32,704 bases of DNA. Source: Candidatus Bipolaricaulota bacterium. Its GTDB lineage: Bacteria > Bipolaricaulota > Bipolaricaulia > RBG-16-55-9 > DRXL01. A program made the position numbers and the translations under genes. Below the pieces are notes generated by a model that was not told the DNA's origin, ran no database searches, and saw only the letters and a list, made by a program, of their open reading frames with translations. This document shows, one piece after another, positions 10,188 through 31,964 of this stretch. The DNA is taken from positions 1 to 32,704 of the forward strand of contig JAUQPG010000007.1 in the NCBI GenBank assembly GCA_030550495.1, read 5' to 3'. Every line of letters begins with the position of its first letter. Positions within the stretch are counted from its first letter, which is position 1.

Positions 10188-10541
10188 ATGAAGGGTAATC
10201 TCATCCGTGAGATTGAACAAGAGCTTATGCAGAGAGAGATCCCGGAGTTTCGCCCCGGCGATACTATTCGTGTGCATGAGCGCCTCTTAGAAGGCGGTGA
10301 AGGGGCGAAGGAAGGGAAGGAGCGCATTCAAGTCTTCGAGGGGATCGTTATCAAGTGCGCTGGCAGCGGCGTTAACAAGACATTCACTGTGAGAAAAGTC
10401 TCCTATGGGATTGGGGTGGAGAAGATCTTCCCCTTGTATTCCCCAAGAATTGCCAAGATTGAAGTAGTCGAGCGTGGCCGTGCACGCCGTGCGCGCTTGA
10501 CCTATCTACGGCGGCAGGCTCTGGAAGCCAACGCTAAGTAA
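10188..10541 (+). CDS. rplS: 50S ribosomal protein L19
   Basis: The 117-residue protein shows the L19 signature: [13 protein letters not shown], then a short Gly/Glu/Lys-rich insertion (about residues 32-44), [30 protein letters not shown] and the C-terminal [10 protein letters not shown]19 lies at the 30S-50S interface. An AAGGAG sequence (10174-10179) stands about eight bases before the ATG. The position after trmD is the classical one, here interrupted by the SPOUT gene. Confidence 0.98.
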
Positions 10542-17931: not shown

Positions 17932-19866
17932 ATGGCGGCCAAGGGTGACAGATTGGCTTCGGAGCTCCGCGGTCGGCTCTCACCGGAAGCGCGCATCTAC
18001 GCTGATCTCTCCAGCCGGCGGCTCTACGCCCGCGACCAAGGAGAGCCCCCGCGCTTCGTCGAGAGAGTCTTGCTGAAACAGAACATCCCCGATCTCGTCC
18101 TGCAACCGGAGCTTCCCGACGACGTGAGCGCCGCTCTACGCTGGGCACGCGCAAGAGAGTTGTCAGTAGTGCCGCGCGGCGCCGCGACGTTTGGGCTTGG
18201 CGGGGCCGTGCCCACCCAGCACGGACTCGTTCTAGACTTCTCAGCCCTTAGATCGATCGAAGAGATAAATCTTGATGAGCAGACTGTCACGGTCTTGGCC
18301 GGAACGCGCTGGGCCGATGTCGCTCACGCCCTCAAGCCCTATGGACTAGCACTGTGCACTTACCCGACAAGCTGGTTCTCTACAGTTGGCGGTTGGGTCA
18401 ACACCGGCGGGTACGGCGTGGGCAGCCTCGCCTATGGGCACTTCAAAGATCAGATTCACAGATTGATCGTGCTCACGCCCCAAGGAGAATTAAAAGAACT
18501 GACAAGCGACGACCCAGAGTTTGAGTACTTTATCGGCACGGAAGGGCAGATGGGCGTCGTCTGGGCAGTGACGCTGCGCGTGCGCCGCGCGCCCCAGAAA
18601 ACAACACCGATACTCCTGCAGTGCGACTCGGTAGAGAGCGCGTTCGCGCTCGCTCACGAACTCCTGCAGGAGGGCTTCCAGCCCTATCATATGAAATATC
18701 TCAGCGCGGCACGCATCCACGAGATCAACGAGCTTCTCCACAGCTCAGAAGCGCAGATCCCTGAACGCGAGAGCCTGCTGATCGCTTTCGATGAGTGGGA
18801 GAGCGCACGAGCGTGTGAGCGCTGGGCCGTGCAGAGCGAGATCACGGTGAGCTCACTCTATCACGCATATTATCTGTGGCACGAGCGGCTCTTCCCCATG
18901 CGCCCCAAGCGACTTGGCCCAGGGATGCTTGCTTCTGAAACTGTGCTGAGCGCCGAAAAAGCCCCAGAGTTTATTAAAAAAGCCGAGCGCGAGGGAGCGC
19001 GCTTCGGCGTCCATCTCGCCAGCGAAGCCTACTTCGTCGGCGATGGCCAAGTGCTGCTGTTGCCCGCCTTCACGTTCAACTCTCGCAATGTGTTCTCAGA
19101 GTTTTTCGTAGCGAGCCTCTCGCTAGTGCTGACGAGACTTGGGATCGCTCTTGGCGGGCGGCCTTATGCGATCGGGATTTGGAATACGCCCTTTGCCCGC
19201 GCAAAGTTTGGCAAAAAATTCGACGAGCTGTGCGCGTACAAGAGAAAGATAGACCCCGATGGGCTGCTCAATCCCGGAAAGTTTTTCGCCCTGCCCGCGC
19301 ATTGGAGCTCGCTGATGCTGCGGGGGCTGCCCTTGAGCATCGGTTTGGAAATCGCGCGATTAGCCGCGCCGCTTGTACGTAAGTTCTTCGATCCAACTCC
19401 TAAGCGCTATCCCGCCCGCGAGCCGGGCCGCCCCCCAACAGCGATCTCGCCTCTGCTCGATCTCTTAGAGTATAACGAGACACTCTGCTCGCGCTGTGGC
19501 AGCTGCGTCCCCGTCTGCCCTGCTTATATCTATACGAAAGACGAGCGCACCACGGCGCGGGGCAAGCTCCAACTTGGGCTGGCGCTGCTCAAGGGTGAAA
19601 AACTCGACGCTGCAGGCGCTCAGGCGCTCTTCTATTGTATGCATTGTCGCGCGTGCACCGACGTCTGCCAGAGCTCTCTGGACTTAGTTCCCGTCTGGGA
19701 CGAGCTGGAGCGCCGCGTTGAGGCGCGCTTCGGCAAGGATCACCAGAAGATTGAAGAGTTCGTGCGCGGAGTCGAAGCGATGCAGATCATGCCCGGCACA
19801 GAATATGTGCCGCCGATTGTGAAAGTGCTAGAGGGAGTCGCGTATGGTCATCGCGACGCGAGCTGA
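17932..19866 (+). CDS. Glycolate-oxidase-like FAD-binding oxidoreductase fused to a two-cluster 4Fe-4S domain
   Basis: The 644-residue protein has an N-terminal FAD-binding (type 4, GlcD/D-lactate dehydrogenase-like) domain at about 45-225, with VVPRGAATFGLGGAVP, SWFSTVGGWVNTGGYGVGSLAYG and GTEGQMGVV. A C-terminal FAD-linked oxidase domain follows (to about 460, ending DPDGLLNPGKFF). A GlcF-like ferredoxin module completes it, with C519, C522, C525, C529 and C569, C572, C575, C579. It resembles GlcD joined to the Fe-S head of GlcF. Such enzymes oxidise 2-hydroxy acids or pass electrons between flavin and Fe-S partners. Heading the glutamate synthase operon, it may feed electrons to the synthase in place of GltD. 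That is inference, and the substrate is unknown. It overlaps the next gene by 23 bases. Confidence 0.87.
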   Translation: MAAKGDRLASELRGRLSPEARIYADLSSRRLYARDQGEPPRFVERVLLKQNIPDLVLQPELPDDVSAALRWARARELSVVPRGAATFGLGGAVPTQHGLVLDFSALRSIEEINLDEQTVTVLAGTRWADVAHALKPYGLALCTYPTSWFSTVGGWVNTGGYGVGSLAYGHFKDQIHRLIVLTPQGELKELTSDDPEFEYFIGTEGQMGVVWAVTLRVRRAPQKTTPILLQCDSVESAFALAHELLQEGFQPYHMKYLSAARIHEINELLHSSEAQIPERESLLIAFDEWESARACERWAVQSEITVSSLYHAYYLWHERLFPMRPKRLGPGMLASETVLSAEKAPEFIKKAEREGARFGVHLASEAYFVGDGQVLLLPAFTFNSRNVFSEFFVASLSLVLTRLGIALGGRPYAIGIWNTPFARAKFGKKFDELCAYKRKIDPDGLLNPGKFFALPAHWSSLMLRGLPLSIGLEIARLAAPLVRKFFDPTPKRYPAREPGRPPTAISPLLDLLEYNETLCSRCGSCVPVCPAYIYTKDERTTARGKLQLGLALLKGEKLDAAGAQALFYCMHCRACTDVCQSSLDLVPVWDELERRVEARFGKDHQKIEEFVRGVEAMQIMPGTEYVPPIVKVLEGVAYGHRDAS

Positions 19867-22864
19867 GAGCCGATATTCGATTCACACCCAGCGAGCGCCG
19901 TCGCGGGCGAAGCCCTTAGTGCGCCCGATGATCGTGCGCTCTGAGGCGTGCATCAATTGTGGGATCTGCGTGAGCGCGTGCATCTACGGCGTGCACTATC
20001 GCGCTGAAGGCTTGCGCATGATCATCGGGGAGCAGCCACAAGATCAGAATCTCTGCCGCAGCTGCCTGCGCTGCGTGCGCGAGTGCCCTCAAAATGCGCT
20101 CTCCGCTCCCATCCAGCCGGAATGGAAGCACACCGGTGACGACTACTGGACGCCCGAAATTATTCAGAGTCTCGTGCAACAAGCCGAAACTGGGAAGGTT
20201 CCGGTCTCCGGGCAGGGGTATCGCGGCCCATTTGTGGGCAAAGATTTTGACTCGATGTGGACGGACATGTCCGAGATCGTCCGGCCCACCCGCGATGGCA
20301 TCCACGGCAGGGAATACATCAGCACCGCGATCTTTTTAGGGAGAAAGCCGTTCGCTTTGACCTCTCCCCCTCCCCGGCACGGGGAGGGGGATCTCGACCC
20401 TGTGCTTGAAATCCCCATCCCCATGCTCTTCGACGCTCTACCCGCACCCTTCAACACCCCTAGCGTGCGCGAGGCTCTGCTGAGCGCAGCCCAAGCTCTG
20501 GGCACGTTCTGCCTTCGGAGAGTCGAAGAATGCCCCACGCCCTTGCCTACGGCGCTTGCTCCCTTGCTCCGCCCTGATGAGATTGACAGATATTCTGAAA
20601 CCATCCGCCAAGCGCTGCTTGTTGAGCTTGAGTGCGACGGTCATGTGCGCTCTCTCGAGAACGCTCTCGCTCAGATACGAGAGCTAAACCCTAACGCTGT
20701 CGTCGCCGTGCGTTTAGAGTTCGACGACGCGCTGGCTGAGGAGCTGGCGCGCACGGGCGTGGGCGTCTTGCACTTCGTCGCTAACTCGCACGGTCGGACG
20801 CAAAAGTTCGGGCACATCAAGGACGCGCTGCGCGCGGTGCATCTGCGCTTGCTCGATGCTCGCCTGCGCGATGCTGTCACGCTCATCGTCAGCGGAGGCA
20901 TCGCTGCTGCTGAGCACGTTCCCAAAGCGATCATCTGTGGGGCGGATGGGGTCGCACTCGATCGAGCGCTCTTAGTCGCGCTGGAGTGCTGGCGCGGGGA
21001 GGAGATGGCCCTCACCTCCAGCCCCTCTCCCGTCGGTGGCGACGGGAGAGGGGTGCCCGCAGGGCGGGGTGAGGGCCTTGAGTTTGATCCCGCTTGGGGC
21101 GCGCAGAGAATTGTCAATCTCATTGGAGCTTGGCGCGATCAGCTTTTGGAAGTCTTGGGCGCGATGGGCATGAGGGAAGTGCGGCGCCTGCGCGGCGAAG
21201 TGGGCCGCGCCATCTTCTATGACGATCTAGAGCGAGAGTTCAAAGAATATCTCAGATCACAGCCTATCGGCCTAGCTCGTCCCGAAGAGATTCAGTATGC
21301 TCTAGAAAATCCCGACGGGCTCATCCCGCCCATCACGGAAGAAATCCGCCCGCTCCCTCCAAACTTCCATCACGAGCTGGCGAAGTTCAAAGTCACCATC
21401 AGCGACGCATGTATCAGTTGCGGGCTGTGCGTTGAGCTGTGCCCATTTGGCGTCTACGCGCGCCCTGAGGGGCTGAATAAGCTCTTGCCGCCCACAAGCG
21501 CCAACTGCATCGGCCCTCTCTGTCAAGAGAAATATCCCGATCACTATTGTGTGGACAAGTGCCCCACGAACGCCATTGCTATCGAGCGCGAGCCAACTTA
21601 TGAGCTGTTAGGAGACCCGCGCTGGACGGCAGATCTGCTCCTCGCGACGTACAAGATGGCTGAGACCGGTCGTGCTCCAGAGCATCTTGAGTACAGGGTG
21701 GGGGCCTCCGGCGGCGGATTCGACAAAATAAAATTTACGTTTGAAAGTTGGCGGGTTCACAAGTCCACCCCCAGTCCCTCTCTCCTTCGAGGGAGAGGGG
21801 AGCCAAGGGGTGAGGGGACACGCAGCCACGAGCCCTCTACTGCCATCCCGCTCAATCGGCGCCCGTGGGGGCCAAAGATTTGGATTCCCGTGCCGTGGTA
21901 CGGTGGTGGCATGTCCTACGGCTCTGTGAGCCTACAGACGATGCTCTCGCGGGCGCGGGCTGCTAAAGCTTTTGGGACCTTCGTCTCCACCGGCGAGGGC
22001 GGCTACCCCGAAGCCCTCTATCCCTATGACGATCATATCATCACCCAGATCGCCACGGGGCTTTTCGGCGTCCGCGAAGACACTATACAAAGAGTGCGCA
22101 TCGTCGAGTTCAAGTACGCGCAAGGGGCCAAGCCCGGCCTGGGCGGGCATTTATTAGCTGATAAAGTCACAGCCGACGTGGCCAAGATGCGCGGCTCGGT
22201 GCAGTTCAGCTCGCTCTTCTCGCCGTTTCCATTTCATAGTGTTTACTCCGTCGAGGACCATAAAAAGCACGTAGACTGGGTGCGGGCGACCAACCCCCGC
22301 GCGCTCGTCTCTGTCAAAGTCTCGACGCCCAACGATGTAGACATGGTTGCCGTGGGCAGCTACTACGCCGGCGCGAACATCATTCACTTAGATGGGGGCT
22401 ACGGTGGCACCGGCGCTGCGCCGGATATCGCCAAGAAAAATATCGCGATGCCCATCGAGTACGCGATTCCTAAAGTTCATAAGTTCTTGGTGCAAGAGGG
22501 GATTCGCGATGAGTTAGTCTTGATGGCCAGCGGCGGAATCCGCACAGCCTACGATATTGCGAAAGCAATTGCGCTGGGGGCTGACGGCTGCGTCATCGGG
22601 ACGGCAGAATTAGTAGCGCTCGAATGCAATCGCTGTGGGAACTGCGAGCGTGGGCGGGGCTGCCCGTTCGGGATCGCTACGACAGATCCGGAGCTGTCGC
22701 AGCTCATTGCGCCCGATTGGGGTGCGCAGAGAATTATTAATCTCTTTCACGCGTGGCGAGCGCAGCTTATCGAGATTTTGCAAGAGCTTGGGATGCGCAG
22801 TATCTTGGAGCTGCGCGGGCGGGTGGATGTGCTGGAGTATATTGACGAGATGAAAGATCACTAA
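19844..22864 (+). CDS. Glutamate synthase FMN/Fe-S subunit with tandem ferredoxin-synthase modules (first degenerate)
   Basis: The protein has 1006 residues; GGGAG lies six bases before the ATG. Module 1: two 4Fe-4S motifs (C36/39/42/46 and C71/74/77/81), a linker with YWTPEIIQSLVQQAETGKVP and MWTDMSEIVRPTRDGIHG, and a worn barrel domain (about 185-460) that keeps SGGIAAAEHVPKAIICGAD and WGAQRIVNLIGAWRDQL. Module 2: ferredoxin-like C523/526/529/533 and C555/560/569/573, then a full synthase barrel (about 675-1000) with GGGMSYGSVS, QGAKPGLGG (760-768), DGGYGGTGAAP (850-860), SGGIRTAYDIAKAIALGAD and the 3Fe-4S-type C928/931/934/940. Module 2 should add the ammonia delivered by the glutaminase to 2-oxoglutarate. 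Module 1 lacks the catalytic motifs and probably serves electron transfer or structure. Three palindromic elements are inserted in frame (residues about 174-182, 388-411 and 641-658). Confidence 0.88.
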   Translation: MVIATRAESRYSIHTQRAPSRAKPLVRPMIVRSEACINCGICVSACIYGVHYRAEGLRMIIGEQPQDQNLCRSCLRCVRECPQNALSAPIQPEWKHTGDDYWTPEIIQSLVQQAETGKVPVSGQGYRGPFVGKDFDSMWTDMSEIVRPTRDGIHGREYISTAIFLGRKPFALTSPPPRHGEGDLDPVLEIPIPMLFDALPAPFNTPSVREALLSAAQALGTFCLRRVEECPTPLPTALAPLLRPDEIDRYSETIRQALLVELECDGHVRSLENALAQIRELNPNAVVAVRLEFDDALAEELARTGVGVLHFVANSHGRTQKFGHIKDALRAVHLRLLDARLRDAVTLIVSGGIAAAEHVPKAIICGADGVALDRALLVALECWRGEEMALTSSPSPVGGDGRGVPAGRGEGLEFDPAWGAQRIVNLIGAWRDQLLEVLGAMGMREVRRLRGEVGRAIFYDDLEREFKEYLRSQPIGLARPEEIQYALENPDGLIPPITEEIRPLPPNFHHELAKFKVTISDACISCGLCVELCPFGVYARPEGLNKLLPPTSANCIGPLCQEKYPDHYCVDKCPTNAIAIEREPTYELLGDPRWTADLLLATYKMAETGRAPEHLEYRVGASGGGFDKIKFTFESWRVHKSTPSPSLLRGRGEPRGEGTRSHEPSTAIPLNRRPWGPKIWIPVPWYGGGMSYGSVSLQTMLSRARAAKAFGTFVSTGEGGYPEALYPYDDHIITQIATGLFGVREDTIQRVRIVEFKYAQGAKPGLGGHLLADKVTADVAKMRGSVQFSSLFSPFPFHSVYSVEDHKKHVDWVRATNPRALVSVKVSTPNDVDMVAVGSYYAGANIIHLDGGYGGTGAAPDIAKKNIAMPIEYAIPKVHKFLVQEGIRDELVLMASGGIRTAYDIAKAIALGADGCVIGTAELVALECNRCGNCERGRGCPFGIATTDPELSQLIAPDWGAQRIINLFHAWRAQLIEILQELGMRSILELRGRVDVLEYIDEMKDH
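20365..20391. repeat. Palindromic coding insertion A
   Basis: A perfect palindrome with 12-bp arms (TCCCCCTCCCCG / CGGGGAGGGGGA) and a 3-base centre, inside the FMN-subunit gene and in frame. It is translated as part of the peptide ALTSPPPRHGEGD, just after a GRKP sequence and before the degenerate barrel. It shares the CCTC/GGGGAGG character of the other three elements but is shorter and lacks the outer arms. Confidence 0.7.
21007..21077. repeat. Palindromic coding insertion B (two nested stems)
   Basis: Outer arms GGCCCTCACC (21007-21016) and GGTGAGGGCC (21068-21077). Inner perfect 14-bp arms CCCCTCTCCCGTCG (21022-21035) and CGACGGGAGAGGGG (21040-21053) with a GTGG centre. It is in frame and adds a Gly/Pro/Ser/Arg-rich peptide (residues about 388-411) between the ALEC segment and the WGAQRIVNL segment of module 1. 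In module 2 the same two segments flank the cysteine region instead. Confidence 0.85.
21764..21818. repeat. Palindromic coding insertion C
   Basis: An imperfect member of the family. The outer CACCCC (21766-21771) pairs with GGGGTG (21807-21812). The inner CCTCTCTCC / GGAGAGGGG (21777-21800) has a small TTCGAG loop and one wobble pair. It is in frame and read as a STPSPSLLRGRGEPRGEGT-like peptide between the second ferredoxin module and the catalytic barrel, in the same reading phase as element B. Confidence 0.75.
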
Positions 22865-23122
22865 ATGAGCAAGAGAAAAGACTATCGCAAACAACTGGTG
22901 CAAGAGCTAGAAGAAGCTTTAGAGGTCGTTTTATACGAAGTTCTCGAGGCTGCCCGTAATTTTGAGAGCAAAGTCAAAAGCCTCAAAAACTTGAAGCGAT
23001 CCGGTTCTAGCTATGAAGGGCATCATGGTGAGTTGGCAGCAGCAGCGTTCTTGCTCAAGTTGAAAGCAGAAGCGGCTTACGAGACGCTAGAGCAGCTTAT
23101 AGAAGCTGAACCTGACGAATAG
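22865..23122 (+). CDS. Small charged helical protein of unknown function
   Basis: I do not recognise this 85-residue protein (MSKRKDYRKQLVQELEEALEVVLYEVLEAARNFE, ending TLEQLIEAEPDE). It is rich in Glu, Lys, Leu and Ala and looks wholly alpha-helical, probably two or three amphipathic helices, with no Cys, no signal peptide and no membrane segment. The ATG follows the stop of the synthase subunit directly (TAAATG), so it is made from the same message. A small assembly or regulatory subunit of the synthase is conceivable, but nothing in the sequence proves it. Confidence 0.75.
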   Translation: MSKRKDYRKQLVQELEEALEVVLYEVLEAARNFESKVKSLKNLKRSGSSYEGHHGELAAAAFLLKLKAEAAYETLEQLIEAEPDE

Positions 23123-23127
23123 CTACT

Positions 23128-23466
23128 ATGCCAAGCTTTATCCAGGTCATCACGGCAACGGCGAGCAAAGCCGAGGCCGAGCGCATCGCGCAGGCATTGC
23201 TGGAGAAGCGTCTAGCGGCGTGCGTGCAGATCGTCGGGCCGATGGAGAGTCTCTACTGGTGGCGCGGGAAGATCGAGCGCTCCGAGGAATGGCTGTGCGT
23301 TGCCAAATCGGAGCTTGCGCTCTTCTCGCAACTAGAAGAGACGATCAAAGCGTTGCACTCGTATGAAGTGCCGGAGATCGTAGCTGTCCCCGTGGTCGCG
23401 GGGAGCGCTGAGTATCTCCAATGGTTGCAAGAAGAGCTTCACAACAAAGGCCTATCGTCGAGGTGA
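23128..23466 (+). CDS. cutA: CutA1 divalent-cation tolerance protein
   Basis: The 112-residue protein carries the CutA1 signature from end to end: QVITATASKAEAERIAQALLEKRLAACVQIVGPMESLYWWRGKIERSEEWLCVAKS and the C-terminal LHSYEVPEIVAVPVVAGSAEYLQWL. CutA1 forms a trimer with a ferredoxin-like fold resembling PII proteins. It was first linked to copper tolerance, though its true role is unsettled. Its place between two glutamate synthase genes is noteworthy because the related PII proteins regulate nitrogen assimilation. The start follows the small gene by five bases. Confidence 0.95.
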   Translation: MPSFIQVITATASKAEAERIAQALLEKRLAACVQIVGPMESLYWWRGKIERSEEWLCVAKSELALFSQLEETIKALHSYEVPEIVAVPVVAGSAEYLQWLQEELHNKGLSSR

Positions 23467-23476
23467 TTCCCTGAGA

Positions 23477-26080
23477 ATGAGAACGCGCAATCTAATCGAG
23501 AAGCTCATCGCCTCACGGCATTCGCTAAAACCATATAATAATCTGGGGCACCATGCCGAGGCCGAAGGTGGCTGCGGCGTCCTGGGGATGATCGCTTCAC
23601 AGCCCATTGCCGGCAAGCATGTCTATCGTAGCTCCATCCAAATGCATAACAGAGGGAACGGCAAGGGCGGCGGGCTCGCGGCTGTTGGCCTTCTCCCTGA
23701 ACAGATGGGCGTCTCAAGAGAAAAACTAGAAGACAATTATCTCATCCAGATCGCGTATCTCGACCCAGCAGCTCGAAAAGACGTCGAACAGGATTTCTTA
23801 CTCCCGCACTTTGAGATTCATCAGGGCTACGCTGTGCCCAGCATACACGACCATCGAGAGATCGGCTTGGAGGTTCAGCCCCCGCTGGTGTGGCGCTACT
23901 TCGCCCGCGTCAAAGAAACTGTACTTGCCGAGTTCATTCAGAAGAACGAACTGAAGGGCATAGACCCCCGCCGCGCCGAAGACGAGTTCGTCTATCAAAA
24001 TTCTTATAAACTGAACAAGACGTTCTACGCGTCATTAGGCGAAAAGCGCGCGTTCGTGCTCTGTCACGGGAGAAATCTCTTAGTCTTTAAGATCGTCGGC
24101 TACGCTGAACAGGCTTTGCAGTATTATCAGCTAGAGAATCTCAAGGCCCATGGCTGGATCGCCCATCAGCGATACCCGACAAAAGGGCGCGTCTGGCACC
24201 CTGGCGGCGCACACCCCTTCATTGGGTTGCACGAAGCCCTCGTGCACAATGGAGATTTTGCGAACTATCACGGCGTCTGTGAGTATCTGAAACAGAGAAA
24301 TATCTACCCGCTCTTTCTCACAGACACCGAGGTCTCGGTGCTGCTCTTTGATCTGTGGAGCCGTGTCTATGGCTATCCGTTGGAGTACGTGATCGAAGCG
24401 CTCGCACCCACGACCGAGCGCGACTTTCTGATGCTCCCCAAAGAGAAGCAAGAGCTGTACAAACAGATTCAGGTCGCGCACCTGCACGGCTCGCCCGACG
24501 GCCCGTGGTTCTTCATCATCGCGCGCCATGAGCCGTATGAGAAAAAATTCCAACTGATCGGGATCACCGACACGAGTATGCTCCGCCCTCAGGTCTTCGC
24601 TCTGCATGAGGGGCCGGTGCAGATCGGGCTGATCGCTTCAGAAAAGCAAGCGATCGACGCTGCGCTCCAAAGCCTGCACGACGAAGACCCGCGCATCTGC
24701 CCCGTCGCTGATAAATACTGGAACGCACGCGGCGGCAGCCACACCGATGGGGGTGCCTTCATCTTCACCGTAGACTACAGCCAACCAAATTTAAAGCTTG
24801 TCTGCACGGATAAGTTCGGCAGGGAAGTATCTGCTGGCCCTCACCCCCGGCCCCTCTCCTGTGGGTCACCACGGGAGAGGGGTAGCCGTCAGGCTGGGGT
24901 GAGGGCCTCTCTCCCCACCAACCCCGTGGCTAGTGCGCTCGATCCCGCCCAGCCGGCTCTCGAAGCTTTCGCTGAACTCAAGAGCGAGATCAGAGCTTGG
25001 GATTATGACGTCTTTGAAGAGTTCTTGCGCGTCTGTCTAGAAGAATCTCGTCACAGTGATGCTCAGCGCCGTCATATACTAGAGTTGCTGACGTTCTTAT
25101 TAGACCGTCGCTATCGTACAGAGAAGATGGAGCGCAAGTGGCTGCGCGCCCTCCTTGAGGCGACTATCAATGAGATTTTGGATTCGGTGTCCTCGCTCGG
25201 TGCAGCGTCAGACTTTGGGCGCATCACGTGGCAGACGCGCGCTACGCTCTCTGCGCCGCGAGCGCCGACCCAAACGCTCGTCATAGACGCCACGGGCTTT
25301 CCCCCCGAAGGCGAGGACGCGCTCTCGCTCTTGATAGTGAGCGCCTATAAGCTTGGCTGGAAGAAGTTTCTTCTCTATCGCTGCTGCGGGCAGCGCTTCA
25401 TCGGAAGCGGGCTTGGCCCGCGCTCTCACGGCGTGCGCCTCGACGTCTACGGCAGTTCGGGAGACTATTTAGCGAGCGGGCTCGACGGCGCAGAGATCTA
25501 CGTCCACAACAACGGGCAAGATCAGCTGGGGCAGATCTATCACGATGGAAAGCTCGTCGTCTACGGGGACGTGGGGCAGACGTTCTTCTACGGGGCTAAA
25601 GGGGGGCAAGCGTATGTCTTAGGCAACGCTGCGGGACGCCCCTTGATCAACGCTGTGGGCTGCCCGCGTGTGGTCATCAACGGCACAGCGTTAGACTATT
25701 TAGCTGAATCGTTCATGGCCGGTGATCCCCTCAACGGCGGCGGGTTTGTCATCCTGAACGGGATCGCTCTCGATGAAGACGGGCAGATTCGAGAGTTAGA
25801 GACGCCATACCCTGGGAGTAATCTCTTCTCTCTCGCTTCTGGAGGGGCGATCTACGTGCGCGATCCCCATAAAAAATTAGATGACGATCAGCTCAACGGC
25901 GGCTGCTATGAAGAACTCAGCGACGCTGACTGGGCGCTCATTTTGCCCTATCTGAAAGAGAACGAGCGATTGTTTGGGATCACTGTTAAAGACTTGCTCA
26001 CCGTAGACGGGGAGAGACTGCCCCCGGAGCGGGTCTATAGAAAAGTCCGCCCGGTCAAGACGGGCGTGTTGAGCTCATAA
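23477..26080 (+). CDS. Glutamate synthase glutaminase (class II amidotransferase) fused to the GXGXG domain
   Basis: The protein has 867 residues. The N-terminal class II amidotransferase domain (about 33-440) has the nucleophile candidate Cys33 in EGGCGVLGMIAS, the glutamine-binding Arg232 in AHQRYPTKGRV, and the NGD motif N258-G-D in EALVHNGDFANYHG. A 32-residue leader before Cys33 would have to be removed, as in GltB propeptides. After a linker that carries palindromic element D (about 454-477) and a helical section, the C-terminal right-handed helix of the GXGXG type runs from about 630 to 780 (SSGDYLASGLDGAEIYV, GDVGQTFFYGAKGGQAYVLG). It should release ammonia from glutamine for the FMN subunit. 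In archaea-type enzymes these two domains are usually separate genes, whereas here they are joined without the synthase barrel. Confidence 0.88.
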   Translation: MRTRNLIEKLIASRHSLKPYNNLGHHAEAEGGCGVLGMIASQPIAGKHVYRSSIQMHNRGNGKGGGLAAVGLLPEQMGVSREKLEDNYLIQIAYLDPAARKDVEQDFLLPHFEIHQGYAVPSIHDHREIGLEVQPPLVWRYFARVKETVLAEFIQKNELKGIDPRRAEDEFVYQNSYKLNKTFYASLGEKRAFVLCHGRNLLVFKIVGYAEQALQYYQLENLKAHGWIAHQRYPTKGRVWHPGGAHPFIGLHEALVHNGDFANYHGVCEYLKQRNIYPLFLTDTEVSVLLFDLWSRVYGYPLEYVIEALAPTTERDFLMLPKEKQELYKQIQVAHLHGSPDGPWFFIIARHEPYEKKFQLIGITDTSMLRPQVFALHEGPVQIGLIASEKQAIDAALQSLHDEDPRICPVADKYWNARGGSHTDGGAFIFTVDYSQPNLKLVCTDKFGREVSAGPHPRPLSCGSPRERGSRQAGVRASLPTNPVASALDPAQPALEAFAELKSEIRAWDYDVFEEFLRVCLEESRHSDAQRRHILELLTFLLDRRYRTEKMERKWLRALLEATINEILDSVSSLGAASDFGRITWQTRATLSAPRAPTQTLVIDATGFPPEGEDALSLLIVSAYKLGWKKFLLYRCCGQRFIGSGLGPRSHGVRLDVYGSSGDYLASGLDGAEIYVHNNGQDQLGQIYHDGKLVVYGDVGQTFFYGAKGGQAYVLGNAAGRPLINAVGCPRVVINGTALDYLAESFMAGDPLNGGGFVILNGIALDEDGQIRELETPYPGSNLFSLASGGAIYVRDPHKKLDDDQLNGGCYEELSDADWALILPYLKENERLFGITVKDLLTVDGERLPPERVYRKVRPVKTGVLSS
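24836..24907. repeat. Palindromic coding insertion D (two nested stems)
   Basis: Outer perfect 12-bp arms GGCCCTCACCCC (24836-24847) and GGGGTGAGGGCC (24896-24907). Inner 14-bp arms CCCCTCTCCTGTGG (24851-24864) and CCACGGGAGAGGGG (24869-24882) with one G-T pair and a GTCA centre. Clearly the same family as element B. It is read in a different phase (PHPRPLSCGSPRERGS) but again without a stop codon, in the linker between the glutaminase and the rest of the protein. Confidence 0.87.
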
Positions 26081-29215: not shown

Positions 29216-31380
29216 GACAGTTCCAAGTTAGCAAGTTTCAAGTTATAAAGTTGTTACTTGCGTTCTTGCTGATCGGCCCAGTGGTCGTCTGGGCGCAACA
29301 GGGCAACGTCGAGCCGATTCAGCTGCCCCCGATTAAGACCGTCACGTTAGAGAATGGGCTGAAAGTCATAGTCATAGAGCAGCCGTCGCTGCCCATTGTG
29401 CAGTTCTCAGTGCGCGTGCGCGTCGGAGCCATTCATGAGCCTTCAGACCGCACAGGCTTGGCGACGTTTACAGCGTCGATGCTGCGCCAGGGAACGACAA
29501 ACAGAACAGCTGAGCAGATCTCTGAAGAGATCGATTTCGTCGGCGGCTCCCTAGGGGCGAGCGCCGACGTCGAGCGCACTGACGTCACGGCTCGAGTCTT
29601 AAAGAAAGACCTCCAGGTCGGGTTAAATCTCTTAGCTGATATTGTGCAGAACCCGAACTTCCCCGAAAAAGAGATAGGCATTATACGCAACCAGCTTTTG
29701 GCCAGCGTGCGCGGGATGCGCGATGACCCGGAAGAGTTAGCTTCAGCGCATCTCGATTTTGCCCTCTTTGGGACGATCCATCCCTTGGGACGCGCCATGA
29801 GCGAGCAGAGCCTCAACGCGATCACTCGTGACGACTTAGTCACGTTCCACGGGATATATTATCGTCCTAATAATTCCGTGCTCGCTGTCGCCGGAGACGT
29901 CAAAGCCGACGAGATTATTAGCTTAGTAAAGCAAGCGTTCGGCACGTGGCAGAAAGCAGATATTCCGCCCGCGCCCTTGCCAGAACCAATTAAGCTCCAG
30001 GGTTATAAAGTGCGCTTCGTGCACAAGCCCGGCCAGACCCAGACCCACATTGAGATCGGACACTTTGGGCTGGCCGTCACTGATCCGGATTATATTCCGA
30101 CAGTGCTTGCTAACTATGTACTGGGCGGGGGGGCGTTCTCATCGCGTCTGCTTCAGGTCATCCGAGCTAAGTACGGAAAGACCTACTCGATCTTCAGCTA
30201 CTTCCCCAGCTATAGCTTCCCAGGGTATTTCCGAATCTCGACGTTCACCCGCAACGAGCAAGCGTTTGAAACGCTGCAGATGATCTTGGACGAGTTCAAG
30301 AAGTTCAAAGAGAATGGGATCACTCAAGAAGAACTCCAAGCGGCGCAAGACAACATCGCCGGGAGCTATATTCTGAGATTAGAGACGCTCTCCGGGCTGA
30401 CGACGACCGTGCTCAATAACGATTTCTATGGGTTTGGCATGGAGCGCAGCCGCAACTGGCGCAAGATAGTTCGTTCGGTAACTTTAGAGCAAGCCAATCA
30501 AGCGATCAAAGATCGCTTCGATCCCGACAACCTCGCGATTGTCTTGTTGAGCGACATCAAGACTCTGGAGGGCCGGACGGAGCTGATTCCGGGAATCCCG
30601 CTAGAGAACGTCAACGTTGTCGATTGGCTGGAGCCGATCACGGCGCGAGCCAAGCCCTATGCAGAGTTTCTCGCGGCGCTCGCTGCTCCCAAAGGGCCAA
30701 CGGAACTGACGTGGGCCGCGCAGATCACCCCCGAAGCAAGGGCGCTGTTGGAGAGGGCGTTTGCGGCCCAAGGGGGCTTTGAGAGGGTCGCCCAGATTCG
30801 CGATGTCTACACAAAGGGACGTGGGAGCATCTTCCGGGGCGGCCAGGAGTTCAAATTTGAAGGAGAGCTCTGGATCAAGCTGCCTAATAAACTCAAACAG
30901 ATAATCAAGTTCGCTGGCGGGCAGAGCACGGTGATCTATAACGGGACGCAAGGCTGGGTGGAAGCCGGTGGACGCGTGCGCGATCTACCTGCGCAAGCCC
31001 TCGCTGAGATCCGCGAATCTATCGAGTTTGACTCGCTGTTGTTCTTGTGGAATATTGCGCGTGCTGACTACACGTTCGACATCGTGGGCACGGCTCAGGT
31101 GGACGGTCAGGAGACCCAGGTTCTGCGAGTGACGAACGAGCAAGGCAAGTCAGCGGACTTCTACTTCGATCTAAAGCGCTTCGTGCCGCTCAAGATTATC
31201 ACGTCGCTTGGCGAGGGAAAGAGCAAGGAGCAACTCTTGAGCGACTACCGTCAAGTCGAGGACTTCTGGGTGCCGTTTGCGCTCAAGACGCTCGAAGACA
31301 AGGAGCTCACTGATAGCTTTGAAGTGCTAGAGTTCAAAGTGAACACTGGGGTTGGGGACGAGCAGTTTGAGAAGCCGTGA
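29212..31380 (+). CDS. M16-family peptidase-like protein, non-catalytic partner, with extra C-terminal domain
   Basis: The 722-residue exported protein begins with a signal peptide (hydrophobic LLLAFLLIGPVVVW, cleavage near WAQ). Two M16 domains follow (about 35-475), but at the place of the HxxEH zinc motif it reads GLATFTASMLRQGT, so it cannot bind zinc there and should form the inactive half of a heterodimer with the preceding gene. A further region of about 240 residues (about 485-722) has strand-rich sequence (FEGELWIKLPNKLKQIIKF, STVIYNGTQGWVEAGG, FYFDLKRFVPLKI) reminiscent of LolA/LppX-like lipid-binding outer-membrane lipoprotein folds. This last assignment is only an impression. ruvA overlaps its stop. 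Confidence 0.88.
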   Translation: MRQFQVSKFQVIKLLLAFLLIGPVVVWAQQGNVEPIQLPPIKTVTLENGLKVIVIEQPSLPIVQFSVRVRVGAIHEPSDRTGLATFTASMLRQGTTNRTAEQISEEIDFVGGSLGASADVERTDVTARVLKKDLQVGLNLLADIVQNPNFPEKEIGIIRNQLLASVRGMRDDPEELASAHLDFALFGTIHPLGRAMSEQSLNAITRDDLVTFHGIYYRPNNSVLAVAGDVKADEIISLVKQAFGTWQKADIPPAPLPEPIKLQGYKVRFVHKPGQTQTHIEIGHFGLAVTDPDYIPTVLANYVLGGGAFSSRLLQVIRAKYGKTYSIFSYFPSYSFPGYFRISTFTRNEQAFETLQMILDEFKKFKENGITQEELQAAQDNIAGSYILRLETLSGLTTTVLNNDFYGFGMERSRNWRKIVRSVTLEQANQAIKDRFDPDNLAIVLLSDIKTLEGRTELIPGIPLENVNVVDWLEPITARAKPYAEFLAALAAPKGPTELTWAAQITPEARALLERAFAAQGGFERVAQIRDVYTKGRGSIFRGGQEFKFEGELWIKLPNKLKQIIKFAGGQSTVIYNGTQGWVEAGGRVRDLPAQALAEIRESIEFDSLLFLWNIARADYTFDIVGTAQVDGQETQVLRVTNEQGKSADFYFDLKRFVPLKIITSLGEGKSKEQLLSDYRQVEDFWVPFALKTLEDKELTDSFEVLEFKVNTGVGDEQFEKP

Positions 31381-31964
31381 TCGACTTTCTTGAGGGCGAG
31401 GTCGTTGAGCTCACAGAGCATTCGGTTGTCCTGGCCGTGGGGGGCGTGGGCTATCGCGTGATCGTTTCGAAAGCAACAGCCGAAGCTCTGCGCGGCCAGA
31501 CTGGCCCTGTGAAGATTTTTACACACTTGCACTACACGCCCAACGACCTCGCCCTCTACGGCTTTGCCACACCTGAAGAGCGCCAGCTCTTTGAGTTATT
31601 AATCTCTGTCTCTGGGGTCGGCCCGAAAGTCGCGATGGGGATTCTCTCAGCCACGACTCCCCAATATTTTGCCGAAGCGATCTTGCAGAACCGCCGCGAT
31701 CTCTTAGAAGATTTGAAGGGGGTGGGGCGCAAGACCGCTGAGCGACTGATCGTCGAGCTCAAAGAGAAGATCACACAAATCCCACTGCGGGCTGAACCGT
31801 CCTTAGCACCGGCGACGACGCAAGAAGAGTTAGCTATTAAGGCGCTGACGCGTTCCTTGGGCTTTACCGAGACGGAAGCGCGTCGTGCGGTGGCGCGTGC
31901 CAAGGCTATGGGAGCAACGACAACAGAAGACCTCGTGAAGAAAGCCCTGGCTTTGCTCTCGTAG
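31377..31964 (+). CDS. ruvA: Holliday junction DNA helicase subunit RuvA
   Basis: The 195-residue protein has the RuvA three-domain layout. An OB fold (about 1-62) contains MIDFLEGEVVELTEHSVVLAVGGVGYRV and HYTPNDLALYGFAT. Two helix-hairpin-helix motifs follow (LISVSGVGPKVAMGILS and LEDLKGVGRKTAERLIVELKEKI), then a flexible linker and a C-terminal domain III (about 148-195, with KALTRSLGFTETEARRAVARA) that contacts RuvB. RuvA binds four-way junctions and loads the RuvB motor. The GTG start overlaps the preceding stop (GTGA). ruvB and ruvC are not in view. The gene ends three bases from the convergent membrane-protein gene. Confidence 0.97.
   Translation: MIDFLEGEVVELTEHSVVLAVGGVGYRVIVSKATAEALRGQTGPVKIFTHLHYTPNDLALYGFATPEERQLFELLISVSGVGPKVAMGILSATTPQYFAEAILQNRRDLLEDLKGVGRKTAERLIVELKEKITQIPLRAEPSLAPATTQEELAIKALTRSLGFTETEARRAVARAKAMGATTTEDLVKKALALLS

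Follow-up and report, generated by a model that had tools for sequence, protein, structure and literature searches.

Palindromic elements in two glutamate synthase-like genes

This locus raises the question of whether palindromic sequences lying in frame inside two glutamate synthase-like genes belong to a mobile family or are simply part of the proteins. The sequence analysed, called the window here, is a stretch of 32,704 nt from a Candidatus Bipolaricaulota MAG. A preliminary description had placed four related elements in these genes, and three of them proved to be copies of a dispersed family. The first host gene (19844-22864, + strand) encodes a ferredoxin and Glu_synthase (PF01645) protein of 1006 aa and holds two of the three. 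A full (type A) element of 71 nt at 21007-21077 (+) codes for residues 388-412 (MALTSSPSPVGGDGRGVPAGRGEGL), and a short (type B) element of 57 nt at 21763-21819 (+), with a partly decayed outer stem, codes for residues 640-659 (KSTPSPSLLRGRGEPRGEGT). The second host gene (23477-26080, +) encodes a glutamine amidotransferase-like and GXGXG (PF01493) protein of 867 aa and carries a full element of 72 nt at 24836-24907 (+), which codes for residues 454-477 (GPHPRPLSCGSPRERGSRQAGVRA). The two full elements are nested palindromes with a fold z-score of about -8 each, and they matched the family's covariance model, which was built with both among its input, at an E-value of 2.3e-19 or better. The short, decayed copy matched at 2e-4. 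As the preliminary description had stated, no other significant covariance-model copy occurs in the 32.7 kb, and all the elements preserve the reading frame, lying within uninterrupted ORFs. As 71 nt cannot be divided by three, it is the net change at the site, and not unit length, that keeps the frame.

The fourth candidate, at 20365-20391 (+), is a simple, local 12-bp hairpin. Its covariance-model E-value of 0.06 is below family significance, and it was rejected as a member. It was also rejected as an insertion, because the homologue in G012, a genome of the same order and another family, is equally long there, and the version in G004, a sister species of the same genus, is 9 nt shorter and has lost the palindrome with those nucleotides. 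This pattern would be expected if a quasi-palindrome had been completed by template switching.

The AlphaFold model of the 1006-aa protein had a mean pLDDT of 44.9 and was too poor for use. This protein is a fusion of two related halves, each of which is an ORF of its own in G012. The Cys-rich loop has been lost from the first half, and the element sits at that place.

A dispersed family with three conserved stems

Pattern and covariance-model searches found many further copies in the genome. The exact-arm pattern occurs at 31 places in the 1.63-Mb genome compared with one for a reversed-pattern control, and the covariance model gave 104 matches genome-wide, with both strands counted and most places scored twice. 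At a cut-off of E 1e-9 or better, the element is present in all 10 genomes of the window's family (1-48 copies each) and in 3 of 90 other genomes of the phylum (one or two copies each). The named contigs that bear it are Ca. Bipolaricaulota or Acetothermia MAGs. Look-alikes of the inner hairpin, without the complete junction, were found on Cupriavidus, Azospirillum and Pseudanabaena plasmids, and a literature search with the literal motif CCCTCACCC returned unrelated papers only. The clustering in one operon that had been suggested is within chance, since, given 41 copies in the 1.63 Mb, p was 0.32 for neighbour pairs no more than 5 kb apart and 0.15 for triplets within 4 kb.

The full element (~71 nt) folds as a three-way junction made of a 12-bp outer stem (GGCCCTCACCCC/GGGGTGAGGGCC), a 12-bp inner hairpin (CCCCTCTCCCGT/ACGGGAGAGGGG) and a small third hairpin (GCCC/GGGC), which the short type lacks. 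Across the family, the unit measures about 57-73 nt. Among 106 distinct copies, pairing holds in 97.7% of 2915 pair cells and falls to about 60% when the columns are slid by one, and doubly changed cells number 44 compared with 15.6 in shuffles. The stems thus covary. They are also very stable, and their conservation does not depend on which strand is sense in the mRNA. Orthologous copies share 84-98% identity, in most cases more than the flanking sequence does, and their hairpin apex varies in compensated sets, for example GTA..TAC to GTG..CAC. Pairing is as good in genes (97.7%) as between them (97.9%), and therefore conservation acts on the nucleic acid and not on the peptide: it is the nested stem structure that is maintained. 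Rfam contains no known RNA family that matches the window, and at the element in the triosephosphate isomerase (TIM) gene it gave sub-threshold microRNA chance matches only.

Residence inside genes

Four genomes (G000, G005, G007 and G008) were examined in detail. A copy was called in-gene when both flanks were coding in one frame, as judged with a home-made three-periodic coding model trained on long ORFs. By this measure, 43 of the 129 copies are in frame within a gene, compared with 68-75% of random positions, and the other 86 do not. Among the placed copies, 55 of 84 lie between tandem genes and 16 of 84 between convergent genes. The element thus avoids genes, yet genes are far from closed to it. 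As a rough estimate, a copy in a gene survives about 0.19 times as often as one at an intergenic site. With phase and orientation taken at random, 40% of insertions contain no stop; if every in-frame open insertion were tolerated, survival would be expected at roughly one third of this, or 0.13.

Many in-gene units are 70, 71 or 73 nt long. All in-gene copies are stop-free in the reading used, a property that the search for spanning ORFs demands beforehand. For each unit length, one phase is blocked by a TGA in the 3' outer arm, and no in-gene copy uses that phase. Most of the full-size in-gene copies (29 of 36) are read in the phase that begins nnG-GCC-CTC, which yields peptides such as EALTPSPSPV..GRGEG. 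The same nucleotide unit is read in different frames, and on both strands, in unrelated proteins. Hosts with Pfam matches include TIM, valyl-tRNA synthetase, DNA polymerase I, PriA, RecG, MutL and a ClpC-like ATPase, as well as aconitase, asparagine synthase, PurD, CarA, tRNA-guanine transglycosylase, TilS and arginase. When aligned with PDB homologues, the TIM and PurD peptides fall at gaps, and the aconitase peptide aligns over a poorly matching, slightly shorter loop of the solved homologue. The asparagine synthase gene of G008 (L183, 6394-8088) has two full elements in one ORF.

TIM provides the clearest case. In G000, G005 and G007, an element or its remnant occupies the loop between helix 5 and strand 6, a site that is empty in 21 other relatives. 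The homologous DNA is read three ways in these genomes, as HPHPQPLSPSRERGAGVRG, as APSPLAPLPSEGEGSRGEG and in a third way. In G003, the same slot holds a palindrome of a different, second family, also in frame (L217, 270-350). One slot read in different frames in sister species is direct evidence that the nucleic acid, and not the peptide, is what selection acts on. A search of G000 for a second TIM gene found none, and the catalytic residues of TIM are conserved. The AlphaFold model of the protein has a mean pLDDT of 89.4, with values below 50 at residues 159-172 only, all within the element peptide, and its best PDB match is the TIM of Thermotoga (1b9b; TM about 0.9). The barrel is thus predicted to be intact, with the element peptide alone disordered.

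Filled and empty sites in relatives

Comparison of related species, which the preliminary description had proposed, showed that sites differ. The element at window 21763 is not present in G004, G012 or G016, and by sequence comparison it is probably a derived insertion with a net gain of 45 nt relative to G004. At this site, G004 has a perfect 26-nt palindrome, GTTCGCGGGTTCTAGAACCCGCGAAC (L086, about 10195-10225). Of the element at window 21007, G004 has kept the 3' half alone, after an in-frame deletion of 54 nt. The element at window 24836 is common to both genomes at the same site, and G004 has an extra copy upstream of the gene homologous to the window host gene. Some other copies are likewise common to two or three species.

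G007 lacks the copy that G008 has in its ClpC-like gene, and for intergenic copies either of two relatives may be the one with the empty site. The window itself has an empty site at 31370-31385, where ORFs ending at 31380 and starting at 31377 overlap; between the same two genes, G005 (L160) and G008 (L192) have a full element. Empty sites of this kind appear to indicate insertion. At one site (L123 in G005, L020 in G000), an arm fragment was left behind. As the MAGs are about 80% identical, some of the empty sites could be clean losses.

Flips, composites and a second palindrome family

Of 15 orthologous sites, 4 hold the element inverted with respect to the flanking sequence, and in three of these both flanks align. 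There are also composite copies, with another palindrome inside the inner hairpin or in its place. In G005 (L252, L246, L247 and L253), a short element is nested in the inner hairpin of a full element; others have an inner hairpin of the second family. This second family (CCAGRCTTCGYCTGGACYGT ... ACRGTCCAGRCGAAGYCTGG, about 69 nt) is unrelated to the main one and occurs in 9 of 10 genomes of the window's bacterial family and in none of 11 outside. Besides the copy in the TIM slot, it has copies between two tRNA genes, at C65:19132-19200 in G000 (L245) and at C6:598-666 in G005 (L250), in opposite orientations.

The flips and composites suggest hairpin-directed rearrangement. They could even reflect a modular hairpin system, in which whole stems invert where they lie or are exchanged, inside genes as well, with template switching during replication as the probable cause. 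We regard this wider reading as tentative and doubtful. If it were true, essential proteins would gain rapidly changing loop peptides without loss of frame.

Mode of movement and alternative explanations

The flanks of the element favour A at -1 and a purine at -2. Target duplication was looked for and none was found: direct repeats of 2-8 nt at the flanks did not exceed shuffles, and the excess of 1-nt repeats is weak (p = 0.037). Y1 transposases (PF01797) were searched for in G000, G005, G007 and G008, which are MAGs of 91-93% completeness, and none was found, while five control genomes gave matches. One is present in G006, which has few copies. A distant arm pair enclosing a gene, as in a longer partner element, was not found in G000. 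Because no Y1 transposase was found in these four genomes, no longer partner in G000 and no target duplication, we infer transposition from the differences between sites only.

The findings are best explained by a non-autonomous palindromic mobile element family of about 57-73 nt, found mainly in one family of Ca. Bipolaricaulota, and we consider this likely. The pattern of filled and empty sites points to mobility rather than only loss. Copies would arise at new sites without target duplication, somewhat more often where the flanks are A/T-rich. Those in genes would survive when stop-free with a net change that is a multiple of three, and would presumably be translated as disordered Pro/Gly/Arg-rich loops of 18-25 residues at tolerant surface or linker positions. 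Replication-linked hairpin processing may cause the flips and apex swaps. In a narrower version, a DNA transposon ending in GGCCCTCACCCC terminal repeats would move the element in trans as its MITE. The 12-bp terminal inverted repeats, the A/T flank preference and the differences between species all fit, but the lack of a target duplication and of any gene enclosed by an arm pair in G000 does not, and this version is possible rather than probable. That the copies are REP-like repeats moved by a Y1 (RAYT) transposase, with those in genes as a by-product, seems quite unlikely. Small palindromes in tens of copies, mostly intergenic, with an inner hairpin resembling the Cupriavidus and Azospirillum plasmid repeats, are what it calls for; however, no Y1 transposase was found in the four genomes examined in detail, a unit has about double the length of a REP and one copy in three lies in a gene.

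Another possible explanation is that the element is a functional intergenic structure, such as a terminator or mRNA stabiliser, that is under selection and occasionally trapped in genes. The 86 of 129 copies outside genes, and their places between tandem (55/84) and convergent (16/84) genes, are in line with such a role. It is an unlikely one, since the structure is as well kept in genes as outside them, the presence of elements varies from species to species and the rough estimate of in-gene survival needs no such selection. Stable stems conserved for either strand as mRNA sense might also suggest that the sequence removes itself, by mRNA splicing or ribosome bypass, giving a protein without the peptide. 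Exact removal of in-gene units of 70, 71 or 73 nt would shift the frame, though, and we know of no splicing ribozyme as small as 71 nt. The stop-free reading of all in-gene copies also counts against self-removal, even if the ORF search itself demands it, and we hold this explanation to be very improbable. Least credible of all are ancestral functional protein segments that merely look palindromic. Some copies common to two or three species would fit, but unrelated proteins carry the same nucleotide unit, read in different frames and on both strands, and homologues without it exist. For TIM and for window 21763, this explanation is refuted.

Comparison with known systems

The preliminary description had likened the elements to the palindromic elements of Rickettsia (RPE), and a family of this kind that tolerates residence in genes is supported by the further copies, the peptide-less homologues and the differences between species. 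As described in PMC2229807 and PMC10969869, RPE (Ogata 2000, 2002) are short palindromes with 12-bp terminal inverted repeats, found between genes and in frame in unrelated conserved genes; they form several families, and target duplication is not established in these accounts. The host protein is still translated and active, as shown for gmk. The Bipolaricaulota element is likewise a palindrome with a long stem and terminal inverted repeats, inserted in frame in unrelated conserved protein genes. Its length is 57-73 nt, in contrast to 105-146 bp for RPE (PMC2229807), and its host belongs to another phylum. It is a GC-rich three-way junction with no known sequence relation to RPE. Both of its strands are read, in several frames, and it also differs in being inverted in place and in forming nested copies with a palindrome of the second family. 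By its length and its host, the element is not an RPE member, although it works like one.

Protein-coding palindromic repeats inside genes are also described for Wolbachia (Ogata 2005, as cited in PMC2229807), an alphaproteobacterial endosymbiont; the likeness lies in coding palindromes within genes. Bacterial MITEs with ORFs (ERIC and the 107-bp form of Correia) have terminal inverted repeats, comparable to the 12-bp outer stem here, and occasional in-frame gene fusions, but are listed with target duplications (PMC2229807), whereas none was found for our element. REP elements, the GTAG/CGTC-tagged repeats associated with RAYT, are also dispersed hairpin palindromes, of 20-40 bp and extragenic (PMC3733652). 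The Bipolaricaulota element is longer and lies partly in genes, and the element-rich genomes are without a Y1 transposase.

In-gene palindromes kept in frame have detailed accounts almost only from Rickettsia and Wolbachia; by its title, Ogata 2002 called in-frame palindromes in conserved genes unique to Rickettsia, and Wolbachia was added later. Here, dozens of palindromes reside in working genes, including single-copy enzyme genes, as floppy extra loops. These in-gene copies offer a natural record of the places where an enzyme can accept an added loop. That an unrelated family lives in genes such as those for TIM, DNA polymerase I and valyl-tRNA synthetase, and does so in a distant uncultured phylum, suggests more than one origin for this way of life.
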